A DNA stretch of 64,000 nt from Sulfurimonas hydrogeniphila (GTDB lineage Bacteria; Campylobacterota; Campylobacteria; Campylobacterales; Sulfurimonadaceae): positions 1,612,001 to 1,676,000 of the forward strand of contig NZ_CP035534.1 of the NCBI RefSeq assembly GCF_009068765.1. The letters run 5' to 3'. Below the pieces are notes generated by a model. The model saw only the letters and a program-made list of their open reading frames with translations, was not told the DNA's origin and ran no database searches. Positions 46,118 to 49,670 of this stretch are shown here, in pieces. Both the position numbers and the translations under genes were made by a program. Each line of letters opens with the position of its first letter. Within the stretch, counting starts at the first letter, position 1.

Positions 46118-47293
46118 TTAAATGGCGCGTTTAAATTCAGGATAGGCTTCAACGCCAACCTCATTGACATCAAGCCCCTCTACCTGAATATCATCCTCTG
46201 CTCTGAATGCAACAATCTTGTTGATAATGTAAATAACAATATAGGAACTCACAAATGCAAAAACTCCGATGACTACAATCCCTTTGAGTTGTGAAATCAG
46301 TGACACTTTATCAACAAAAATACCAACAGCGAGTGTACCCCAAATTCCGTTGACAAGGTGAACAGAAAGTGCACCTACAGGATCATCAAGTTTTAATTTG
46401 TCAAACATTGGTACAGCAAAAACAACAAGTGCACCGCCAATGGCACCAATCAGGATTGGTGTGTACATGTCATACAAATCAGGTCCTGCAGTAATTGCAA
46501 CAAGCCCTCCAAGCGCACCGTTTAATATCATTGTGATATCTAAAAGCTTATAGCGTGCATACATGATAACAGCTGCAATGATTGCACCCGCCAAACCTGC
46601 CGTATTTGTATTCATAATCGTTTTTGCAACCGTATCGGCATTTTCGATACTTGAAATAGAACCGACACTGCCACCGTTAAATCCGAACCATCCTATCCAT
46701 AAAAGAAGTGCTCCAAGAACCACAAGCGGTACATTTGATGCAGGTATCACTTTTATTTTCCCGTCTTTGTATCTGTCTTTTCTTGGTCCCATAATCAAAA
46801 TCGCAGCCAGCAATGCCCAGCCTCCGGTGGAGTGAATAACAGTTGAACCTGCCAAATCATACATGTCAATATCCAACACTGTTCCCGCAAGAAGATCAGC
46901 GCCCCAGCTTACATTAACAATCAAAGGATAAATAACAGCACCCATAACAACCGTAAATATCATCAGTGGTATAATTTTTACACGCTCACTCACTCCACCA
47001 CTCATAATATTTATAGTTTTACCGACAAATGCCATCTGAAACAAAAATGCCGCCCATATACTCATAGAAGAGTTTTCCCAGGAACCAAACGCAAGAGAGT
47101 AGCCGACAAGTAAAAATGCCATAGATGCTACCGCATAAATCATGGTATTTACCGTCAAAACAGAAGAGACATTTTTTGTTCTTACCAGTCCGGCTTCAAG
47201 CATGGCAAAACCCGGAACCATTAAAATAATCAAAACCATAGAAAAAAGTGTAAAGAAAGTATCCAGTATGTATTTGAAATCAGCTTCAGACAT
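46118..47293 (-). CDS. Ammonium transporter (second copy, short)
   Basis: A 391-residue Amt family channel with about 11 membrane helices. FAMLEAGLVRTKN near residues 29-41 is the Amt start region; DLAGSTVIHSTGGWALLAAI carries the first conserved pore His, and VGALSVHLVNGIWGTLAVG the second. It lacks the N-terminal signal peptide of the other copy. The ribosome binding site AAAGG sits between a long hairpin (47302-47474) and the ATG. Together with glnK and the other amt it forms a nitrogen cluster; tonB follows by 8 nt. Confidence 0.94.
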   Translation of the reverse strand: MSEADFKYILDTFFTLFSMVLIILMVPGFAMLEAGLVRTKNVSSVLTVNTMIYAVASMAFLLVGYSLAFGSWENSSMSIWAAFLFQMAFVGKTINIMSGGVSERVKIIPLMIFTVVMGAVIYPLIVNVSWGADLLAGTVLDIDMYDLAGSTVIHSTGGWALLAAILIMGPRKDRYKDGKIKVIPASNVPLVVLGALLLWIGWFGFNGGSVGSISSIENADTVAKTIMNTNTAGLAGAIIAAVIMYARYKLLDITMILNGALGGLVAITAGPDLYDMYTPILIGAIGGALVVFAVPMFDKLKLDDPVGALSVHLVNGIWGTLAVGIFVDKVSLISQLKGIVVIGVFAFVSSYIVIYIINKIVAFRAEDDIQVEGLDVNEVGVEAYPEFKRAI

Positions 47294-47301
47294 TATAAAC
47301 C

Positions 47302-47474
47302 TTTAACCCGGATTATGCAACAGAAAACTCAAGAAAGTCTCTATCATTGTACCCAAGGCACATTCATAAAATTATTGACCAACCAAAAAGGTTGGCACAA
47401 CAATTTTCTAAACATCCCTTGGACACAAGCATAGAACCTACTTATTATTTTCTATTGCATAATTCGGGTTTAAA
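47302..47474. repeat. Long imperfect palindrome upstream of amtB
   Basis: Left arm 47302-47384 and right arm 47390-47474 are inverted repeats of about 83 nt with roughly 75% match by eye and few gaps, around a 5-nt AAAAA loop. The best stretches are the outer ends (ATTATGCAAnAGAAAA in both) and the inner CCAACC/GGTTGG. It ends 9 nt before the amtB ATG, next to its AAAGG ribosome binding site. No reading frame is seen. It could be a degenerate MITE or a structured 5' leader between glnK and amtB. Confidence 0.85.
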
Positions 47475-47560
47475 TTGAACTTAAAAGCTGAGTGTAGCAA
47501 AATCTTTATATTTTAAAAATTAAATCATTATTTTTAAATGCTAAAGAAGTCAATATGTGG

Positions 47561-47725
47561 ATTTTCTACTCCTTGTAAAGGAGTCGGCTTGAGTGCCATA
47601 GCGGCCAGCGAAGCCAAAGGGGGTGGGATACCGCCATTAAGTTAAGCATTTTTTTGCAACGCGGACTTCAGTCCTGGCTGAAAGTGGCAAGACATTGCAA
47701 CAGCCGGTACTGAAGTACCGGTTCC
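47561..47725. repeat. REP/BIME-like intergenic element between glnK and amtB
   Basis: The region holds an exact hairpin at 47568-47584 (ACTCCTT, GTA, AAGGAGT), a 22-nt motif at 47592-47613 related to one at 24424-24445, an imperfect hairpin GCGGACT-TC-AGTCC at 47661-47674, and a perfect hairpin CCGGTACT-GA-AGTACCGG at 47704-47721. The last two face opposite ways, as REP units paired in a BIME do. The perfect one resembles 13438-13460. GC content is higher than its surroundings. No RAYT transposase is in the window. Confidence 0.6.
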
Positions 47726-47741
47726 GAGAAAGCATTATTGT

Positions 47742-48098
<357 letters not shown>

Positions 48099-48161: not shown

Positions 48162-49472
48162 TTAGTTATTCATGTATCTTTCACCTTGAACAGATTCATC
48201 CAGACCCATTGTTTCTTCATCTTCACTTACACGTGAACCACCAGTCAATGCAGTAGCAACATAGTAAACAACAACAGTACCGATAAGAGTGAACAGTCCA
48301 ACAATAACAACAGACTCAACCTGAACAATAAACTGTCCTATTCTGTCACCTGATTCTTTCAGCGGTCCGTCCCATAACAGGTCATTGTCTTTTAAAGCCA
48401 AAAGACCGGTTGCAAGTGCACCAAACAAACCAGCTAAAAAGTGAACACCGAATGCATCCAAAGAGTCATCATAACCAAGTTTCTTTTTAAGCACAGTCAC
48501 ACCCCAAAAAGCGAAGAGCGTTCCAACGATACCAACGATAAAAGCACCACCCACACCAACAAATCCGGCAGCAGGCGTAATAGCGACAAGTCCAGAAACA
48601 GCACCTGTAGCAAGTCCCAGCAATGTAGGCTTTTTATAAATAACCCACTCAGCAAGCATCCATGTAATAGCAGCTGCGGCAGTTGCTATCGTTGTAGTCA
48701 GGAGTGCTACACCGGCAATGGCATTCGCTCCAAATGCAGACCCTGCATTGAATCCGTACCAGCCAAACCATAAAAGAGCTGCACCAAGCGCAGTCAAAAG
48801 CACTGTAGCAGGTTTCATTGCAGACTTAGGATATCCGACACGTTTGCCAACAAGAACAGCAAGAACCAAACCGGCCAGACCACCATTCATATGGACAACT
48901 GTACCACCGGCAAAGTCTAAAGCACCTAAATCAAAGAGATAAGCACCGTCTCCACCCCAAACCATATGAGCAACAGGAGCATACACGACAAGTCCCCAAA
49001 GAGCCACAAATACCAGCCATGTAGAGAATTTAATACGTTCTATAACCGAACCTGCAGCAATAGCTACCGTAATAGCTGCAAATGTACCCTGAAATGCCAC
49101 AAATACATAGGTAGGATATGTTCCGCTTAAATCATGCCAGCTGATTCCGTTTAAGAAGACATTACCGAATCCACCCATTACATTCTGAACAGCGGCAGAC
49201 TCTGCTGTACCAAATGCTATAGAATAACCGGCAGCAATCCAAACGACAAATGCAACTACAAACGCTCCAAAAACCATAGCGTATGTATTGAGTACATTTT
49301 TACTTCTTGTCATACCTGCATAAAACAGTGCAAGACCTGCAGGTGTCATCAATAATACTAATGCAGTTGACATCATCATCCATGCTGTATCACCTGTATC
49401 AAGTGTTGCTGTATCCTCCGCAAATACGAATGTTGGTAAAGCAAATAAAAATGCTAATAACCATTTCTTCAT
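48162..49472 (-). CDS. amtB: Ammonium transporter AmtB (first copy)
   Basis: A 436-residue ammonium channel with a signal peptide at residues 1-18 (KKWLLAFLFALPTFVFA), like E. coli AmtB. FYAGMTRSKNVLNTYAM is the Amt start region; the two pore His are in GGTVVHMNGGLAGLVLA and DAFGVHFLAGLFGALATG. The cytoplasmic tail contacts GlnK. The ATG at 49470-49472 has AGGA 7 nt upstream; nine earlier open codons are not supported. It lies about 80 nt upstream of glnK. No -24/-12 sigma-54 site was found before it. Confidence 0.95.
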   Translation of the reverse strand: MKKWLLAFLFALPTFVFAEDTATLDTGDTAWMMMSTALVLLMTPAGLALFYAGMTRSKNVLNTYAMVFGAFVVAFVVWIAAGYSIAFGTAESAAVQNVMGGFGNVFLNGISWHDLSGTYPTYVFVAFQGTFAAITVAIAAGSVIERIKFSTWLVFVALWGLVVYAPVAHMVWGGDGAYLFDLGALDFAGGTVVHMNGGLAGLVLAVLVGKRVGYPKSAMKPATVLLTALGAALLWFGWYGFNAGSAFGANAIAGVALLTTTIATAAAAITWMLAEWVIYKKPTLLGLATGAVSGLVAITPAAGFVGVGGAFIVGIVGTLFAFWGVTVLKKKLGYDDSLDAFGVHFLAGLFGALATGLLALKDNDLLWDGPLKESGDRIGQFIVQVESVVIVGLFTLIGTVVVYYVATALTGGSRVSEDEETMGLDESVQGERYMNN

Positions 49473-49670
49473 GTGAATCCTTTTGTTGAATATTTTCAAA
49501 ACAAAGTATAGAATAATTACATCTTTTTTTTCAGCTTAAACTGATTAATTTTTAAGCAGCTTTTACGATTCCTCTATTATTTATTCAATTACACAAAAAT
49601 TCATCAGTTTTAAACATTTTATTAAGCGACAATAAGATAATATATATAAATTTAAATTTTAGGTGTTTCA

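Follow-up and report, generated by a model that had tools for sequence, protein, structure and literature searches.

What is a palindrome of some 170 nt doing directly in front of the ribosome-binding site of an ammonium transporter gene? In Sulfurimonas hydrogeniphila such a sequence lies between glnK and the second amtB gene, in the window (the whole 64,000-nt stretch of contig NZ_CP035534.1 analysed here, forward-strand positions 1,612,001 to 1,676,000). A preliminary description of this DNA offered two readings, a degenerate MITE or an RNA stem setting the ratio of GlnK to AmtB through RNase III cutting or start-site masking. We identify the palindrome as a non-autonomous transposable element of 162 bp: a palindromic MITE whose ends are of the IS1380 type (Table 1). 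Very probably, this MITE is one whose hairpin strand has been selected in the mobile lineage, its effect on the operon being incidental.

Results

A long palindrome with one strongly folding strand

The inverted repeat 47302-47377/47398-47473 has 76-nt arms that are 71% complementary without gaps and 20 nt apart. The minus-strand RNA, whose folding the preliminary description had proposed as a check, was folded over 47280-47500 and reached -94.5 kcal/mol (shuffled mean -45.2, sd 3.9, z -12.6), a value equalled by 0 of 200 shuffles. The long imperfect palindrome is therefore real, although its size had been overestimated: arms of about 83 nt with roughly 75% match were expected, and the stem has 70 pairs. 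Its outer ends had been placed correctly (they correspond to the element at 47307-47468 plus two 5-bp target duplications); the centre reads CCAACC-TTTTT-GGTTGG on the minus strand. The 162-nt core alone is strand-asymmetric, since it folds to -81.7 kcal/mol with 70 pairs as the minus strand versus -53.5 kcal/mol with 55 pairs as the plus strand; G-U pairs number 11 and 1 respectively.

At the element, nothing in Rfam scored above the gathering score; four lower-scoring matches, to miRNA, sRNA and viral families, were regarded as chance, and a known Rfam family was rejected. Coding was rejected as well. A short frame of 21-22 codons, opening at ATGCTTGTG, is shared by 10 of 11 Sulfurimonas-type copies (in L002 it has 11 codons), and 79 of 318 single-change codon comparisons are synonymous, near the neutral 22%, as expected of sequence without coding constraint. 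The REP-like block nearer glnK has 54 matches in its own genome at E ≤ 0.01, itself counted, nearly all to positions 3-112 of the 267-nt query. One glnK-amtB spacer thus seems to have taken up two different repeats.

Table 1. Features at the glnK-amtB locus (positions counted from the first letter of the window).
Feature	Position	Strand	Remarks
Second amtB, ammonium transporter	46118..47293	-	PF00909 (Ammonium_transp), 3.7e-89; start codon at 47293
amtB Shine-Dalgarno AAAGG	47304-47300	-	overlaps amtB-side TTTAA duplication
Target-site duplication TTTAA, amtB side	47302..47306	.	identical 5-mers on both flanks; single copy in G019
Terminal inverted repeat CCCGGATTATGCAACAGA	47307..47324	+	0 mismatches to AACCCGRATTATGCAAYAGA, a pattern taken from the window copy
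Non-autonomous mobile element, 162 bp, CCCGGATTATGCAA...TTGCATAATTCGGG	47307..47468	-	strand given is the strong-folding one, sense to glnK-amtB
Terminal inverted repeat CCCGAATTATGCAATAGA	47451..47468	-	0 mismatches to end pattern
Target-site duplication TTTAA, glnK side	47469..47473	.	same 5-mer on both flanks
REP-like high-copy repeat	47633..47737	-	in glnK-amtB spacer; unrelated to the 162-bp element
glnK (P-II)	47742..48086	-	PF00543, 1.8e-32; ORF as listed begins at upstream GTG
Ammonium_transp gene	48162..49499	-	Pfam

Ends, target duplication and empty site

The limits of the element were set by comparing the palindrome with similar ones from other genomes. Its terminal inverted repeats are 18 nt each, and a model built from 11 copies (R1) scores 153.8 bits on the minus strand versus 85.3 on the plus strand (the window copy is included in the R1 alignment). 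Identical 5-bp flanks were seen in 50 of 88 distinct palindromes in which both ends are recognisable. TTNAA stands on both flanks in 50 of the 88, and the N agrees in 44 of these 50 (∼ 38% by chance). Matching flanks of other kinds (ATTAT, TTTAT, TAGAA, ATCTC) also occur; the pentamer is therefore a true duplication and not element sequence.

Of 60 genomes, 56 (own counted) hold a relative of the transporter, and the best 30 matches were compared over 400 nt upstream of the amtB start (157 nt in L035, where the contig ends). Among these best 30, element ends were found at none of the 21 same-genus loci whose contig includes the amtB start, and at none of the six loci from other genera at the orthologous place. 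The glnK motif was recognised before amtB at 19 of the 21, with spacers of 84-421 nt versus 448 nt in the window. These counts are not those of a conserved glnK-amtB leader RNA, and they do not support a conserved function of the stem in setting the GlnK:AmtB ratio. One genome, G019 (amtB 91% identical), holds the empty site with a single TTTAA: it reads ...ATTTTAAGTTCAATTTAAAAGGTTTATA-ATG, and the window minus the element and one duplication reads ...CTTTTAAGTTCAATTTAAAGGTTTATA-ATG. No R1 copy is among the matches listed for G019, which elsewhere has a 23-nt match to one element end. The palindrome does reach AAAGG (47304-47300), as had been noted; it ends there because the target pentamer (47302-47306) overlaps the Shine-Dalgarno sequence, and the duplication rebuilds the amtB ribosome-binding site.

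Predicted effect on the transcript

In the predicted transcript the 70-bp stem ends 13 nt before the amtB start. With the element, ensemble unpaired values along the Shine-Dalgarno sequence are 0.86, 0.65, 0.25, 0.26 and 0.33, versus 0.11-0.19 without it (350 nt upstream); those of the first two bases of the start codon are 0.21 and 0.18 versus 0.44 and 0.19. Start-site masking, one of the two mechanisms proposed earlier, is thus not predicted, because the Shine-Dalgarno bases are, on average, more often unpaired when the element is present than when it is absent. Passages on the Correia elements report that Neisseria transcripts carrying them are cut by RNase III (PMC10969869; PMC2649163). 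By analogy, cutting of the stem in the sense transcript is plausibly the likeliest consequence of the insertion; a dedicated GlnK/AmtB switch is unsupported.

Copies and spread of the family

The search for the arms that had been suggested gave a second full copy of 162 bp in the same genome (146501-146662), an end-only match (65325-65356) and dispersed copies in relatives. Copies are 68-77% alike. R1 copies were found in 24 of 135 genomes of the genus (own counted) and in at least 18 of 397 genomes of the phylum (own counted), from at least 10 of 68 sampled genera; the phylum count is a lower bound, seven candidates having been scored per genome. A related genome of the phylum has up to 24 places among the matches listed, and up to 201 end matches occur elsewhere. 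Stretches of public genomes with the end pattern number 109, many from metagenome bins; they belong mainly to Bacteroidota and Campylobacterota but also to Ignavibacteria, Calditrichota, Elusimicrobia, Omnitrophota, Arenicellales and others. One Labilibacter genome has 201 end matches and one Aquimarina genome 99, versus 0 and 1 for the reversed pattern. Labilibacter sediminis (G511, L358-L377) carries several subfamilies, whose complete members measure 166 bp; 18 of 20 Labilibacter regions fetched around ends hold one or more complete elements of exactly this length. The 201 end matches perhaps correspond to about a hundred copies, and an IS1380 transposase was looked for in this genome and not found. 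Of the non-Campylobacterota loci supplied, R1 matched 34 of 46 over its full length, partly via the shared ends, and its better strand is the strong-folding one in 33 of these 34.

Length is nearly constant, 162 bp in 43 and 160-167 bp in 116 of 136 distinct elements. Two ends stand in direct orientation at L062:4032-4183. Longer sequences with TTTAA on both sides, and without an ORF of 120 aa, were seen at L066:3219-3715 (497 bp) and L136:2461-2872 (412 bp). Assemblies stop ∼ 50-90 bp inside the element at contig ends of L061, L082, L113, L122, L158 and L164; with contigs breaking inside the element, copy numbers from drafts may be underestimates.

Covariation on one strand

Pairing was analysed in 21 Campylobacterota copies (A1), 22 Bacteroidota copies (A2) and 11 Sulfurimonas-type copies (A3); A2 was picked by hand among elements of 163-167 bp (22 of 45 listed non-Campylobacterota references, with L103 and L124 of the same length left out). 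In A3, 97.0% of 737 cells are paired (88.9% when shuffled, 41-48% when slid). Two-sided changes affect 23 of 67 pairs and 59 cells versus 11.6 and 18.6 in shuffled alignments, and 0 of 500 shuffles were as high; the covariation score is 0.322 (0.162 shuffled, 0.07-0.09 slid). Compensated pairs number 32 of 49 in A1 and 23 of 44 in A2. The compensatory changes that the preliminary description had named as a test in related species thus exist, as a trait of the mobile family and not of the glnK-amtB operon.

G-U cells exceed A-C cells by 133:20, 59:12 and 110:12 in A1, A2 and A3. By columns with any G-U versus any A-C, the counts are 29:15, 18:11 and 26:10, related copies not being independent. 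As the excess is smaller by columns than by cells, it is real but partly shared by descent. Two G-U pairs occur unchanged in all 11 copies of A3, which a DNA palindrome corrected via template switching should not keep. Over 71 elements of 145-205 bp kept for an energy comparison, the better strand has 457 G-U pairs versus 36 single A-C mismatches (choosing the strand by energy favours G-U); the strands chosen in this way agree by homology in the alignment, where GCTT and AATG are invariant in 21 of 21 copies. The strand difference has a median of 15.3 kcal/mol and exceeds 20 in 27 of the 71. The asymmetry is weaker outside Campylobacterota and nearly nil in a few copies (L097 0.8, L115 1.6 kcal/mol). 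Folding with DNA parameters favours the same strand in 136 of 136 elements. Mismatches of the A-G (169) and G-G (77) kinds outnumber those of the C-T (34) and C-C (2) kinds; selection on RNA and on single-stranded DNA are therefore not separated. On the strong strand, G+T is enriched among unpaired positions in the Campylobacterota sets (0.60 and 0.69), with a value of 0.52 in A2.

Orientation to genes and replication

The orientation set comprised 136 elements, each 148-179 bp long, whose ends could be recognised and whose folding energy was below -38 kcal/mol; 110 of these, with genes on both sides (simple ORFs of at least 90 aa, not annotation) and a strand energy difference of at least 8, were counted. 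With the strong strand as plus, the upstream and downstream genes are (-,+) in 35 cases, (+,+) in 30, (-,-) in 28 and (+,-) in 17. A sense bias toward co-directional genes was accordingly rejected, 30 versus 28 being random. Thus, the fold belongs to the element, and neighbouring transcripts do not explain it.

Among the matches listed, the strong strand is on the lagging sense in 10 of 10 cases in G324 and 12 of 14 in G364, mostly on the C-rich side (22 of 24 in the two together), and 3 of 4 in G328 are oriented likewise. Unlike these, G251 has no replichore bias (12:12 by midpoint). The opposite orientation was seen in G000 (2 of 2), G116 (3 of 3) and G241 (one), and the single match in G090 is lagging, again among the matches listed. 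The origin was placed by GC skew in G324, G364, G251 and G000 and assumed at the contig start in the rest. A general replichore rule was rejected on these counts. Random orientation to genes and a replichore direction that differs between genomes together imply that no strand-specific process of the host affects one and the same strand of the element.

Candidates for the mobilizing transposase

Some IS1380 family insertion sequences (PF13701) share end type and target with the element; they are 1.2-1.4 kb long and carry a transposase gene, whereas the window element has 162 bp and no gene. A putative derivation from IS1380 is based on ends and target, which match in L134, L204 (both ends) and L202 (one end). 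The Cyclobacteriaceae bin L134 holds a 1403-bp element with the same ends (18 of 18 and 15-16 of 18 positions, flanks TTAAA/ATAAA) and a 393-aa ORF that matches DDE_Tnp_1_4 (PF13701, 8e-46). This transposase gene is nearly complete, but the profile match runs on past one in-frame TGA, and the copy may therefore be defective; the transposase genes in L202-L206 are broken by stops. Two similar ends are present in L204 and one in L202, flanked by TTNAA. Transposases like that of L134 occur in 4 of 397 Campylobacterota genomes, all with internal stop codons. R1 copies are present in three of these four versus at least 18 of 397 overall (P = 3e-4; the two 397-genome samples are apparently the same draw).

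A transposase with element ends was not found in the own genome, where one weak match to PF13701 has 18 bits. Of the 13 genomes behind the searched loci, none of the 11 with 7-201 end matches has PF13701; it is present in the other two (G510, G522), each with one end match. In the genus it was found in 18 of 100 genomes, nine above the cut-off. These elements were rejected as mobilizer, as their visible ends appear to be of another type (CCCCAATAATTCCATA-like). PF01609 transposases, present in four of eight end-rich genomes, never have element ends on both sides and were likewise rejected. One copy of the element, in L351, appears to be interrupted from position 999 onward by an insertion sequence that carries a DDE_Tnp_1 transposase.

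Discussion

The element has what defines a MITE: 162 bp, 18-nt ends, no transposase gene, a perfect 5-bp duplication, an empty site in G019, a second copy in its genome and dispersed copies in relatives. The degenerate MITE of the preliminary description was in this respect the right choice. Its insertion into the glnK-amtB spacer took place at a TTTAA pentamer, which was duplicated, and the amtB ribosome-binding site was left intact. The element belongs to a multi-phylum family of near-constant length in which one strand keeps a long hairpin via compensatory and G-U changes. Selection on the mobile lineage itself would maintain this hairpin, one strand acting as a single-stranded nucleic acid (RNA or ssDNA), and we infer that selection on the element is the simplest reading of its upkeep. 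At the window site, the operon effect would be a side effect of insertion: the 70-bp stem, a likely RNase III substrate, could part the glnK from the amtB mRNA while the start site stays unmasked.

Palindromic MITEs are common and are usually read as passive deletion relics. An ordinary decaying MITE, with equal strands, a hairpin that is a by-product of inverted ends and neutrally drifting arms, would account for the dispersed copies, the TTNAA duplication, the 68-77% likeness of copies and the small strand difference in several non-Campylobacterota copies. Such drift is hard to reconcile with 97% pairing maintained by two-sided changes, with G-U well above A-C on one strand, with the narrow length distribution or with the two invariant G-U pairs; it is already disfavoured, and we regard it as unlikely. 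A mutational origin of the asymmetry (one-strand C-to-T and A-to-G changes without selection) agrees with the G+T-rich unpaired positions in A1 and A3, which may reflect a compositional bias tied to the element. Bias alone does not give two-sided compensations, and A2 lacks the G+T skew yet has a G-U:A-C count of 59:12. Gene orientation is random, replichore direction differs between genomes and, in G324 and G364, the strong strand is mostly on the C-rich side (the latter two among the matches listed), so that this origin seems quite improbable.

A cis-acting RNA stem, evolved or retained at this operon to set the GlnK:AmtB ratio, is suggested by a strong strand that is sense to the operon, by a stem that ends at the ribosome-binding site and by the RNase III cleavage reported in a passage on Correia elements (PMC10969869). 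We consider it very unlikely, given an element found at none of 21 same-genus loci among the best 30 matches, a family orientation that is random and a Shine-Dalgarno sequence that is not masked in the fold. REPINs are strand-specific short hairpins in extragenic DNA, as is the window element, and the orientation of the matches listed in G324 and G364 would suit a REPIN-like element mobilized as single-stranded DNA by a Y1 (RAYT) transposase. Target duplications are not expected of Y1 insertion, and REPINs are not known to leave any. The true 5-bp duplication with its matching central base argues strongly against such an element, as does the unbiased orientation of the matches listed in G251, and we give this origin hardly any credence.

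Correia elements (CREE/NEMIS) have a TA target and Neisseria-type ends; the window element, with ends CCCGRATTATGCAAYAGA and a TTNAA target, is not one of them. They too are short inverted-repeat elements beside genes, with other ends and another host group (Neisseria) than the present family, and the passages concerned state no cross-phylum family with a one-strand fold (PMC10969869; PMC2649163). Short mobile sequences of enterobacteria include RU-1 (127 bp) and RU-2 (168 bp) (passage in PMC2759123), and insertion of ERIC alters transcript level (passage in PMC10969869). ERIC, RU and YPAL have enterobacterial hosts, and TTNAA duplications with IS1380-type ends are those of the window family. 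For the stem-loop families described in part of PMC2267715, it is remarked that either strand will normally fold unless the structure depends on G-U pairs. The window family is dispersed like these and is of the G-U-dependent kind, in several phyla; that part of PMC2267715 does not name Campylobacter, Helicobacter or Bacteroides. We found no description of the family in the open-access papers searched, which does not prove its absence in print. With its multi-phylum range, TTNAA target, IS1380-type ends, near-constant length and one-strand covariation, it is apparently undescribed.

Hairpin MITEs are already known. Here, length, pairing and one-strand G-U pairs are kept whatever the neighbouring genes, and this suggests a need of the element itself for the single-strand hairpin. 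Tentatively, and with less confidence than in its alternative, these would be cross-phylum miniature elements whose spread or persistence needs a one-strand hairpin of ∼ 160 nt that has conserved internal loops and acts either as an RNA encoded by the element or, during movement, as single-stranded DNA, and which in the copy-richest genomes are served by a non-IS1380 transposase. A role of the hairpin in transposition, RNA stability or host tolerance becomes testable. For the reading of genomes, the case is a warning that a conspicuous stem next to a ribosome-binding site can stem from an insertion and need not be a regulator.
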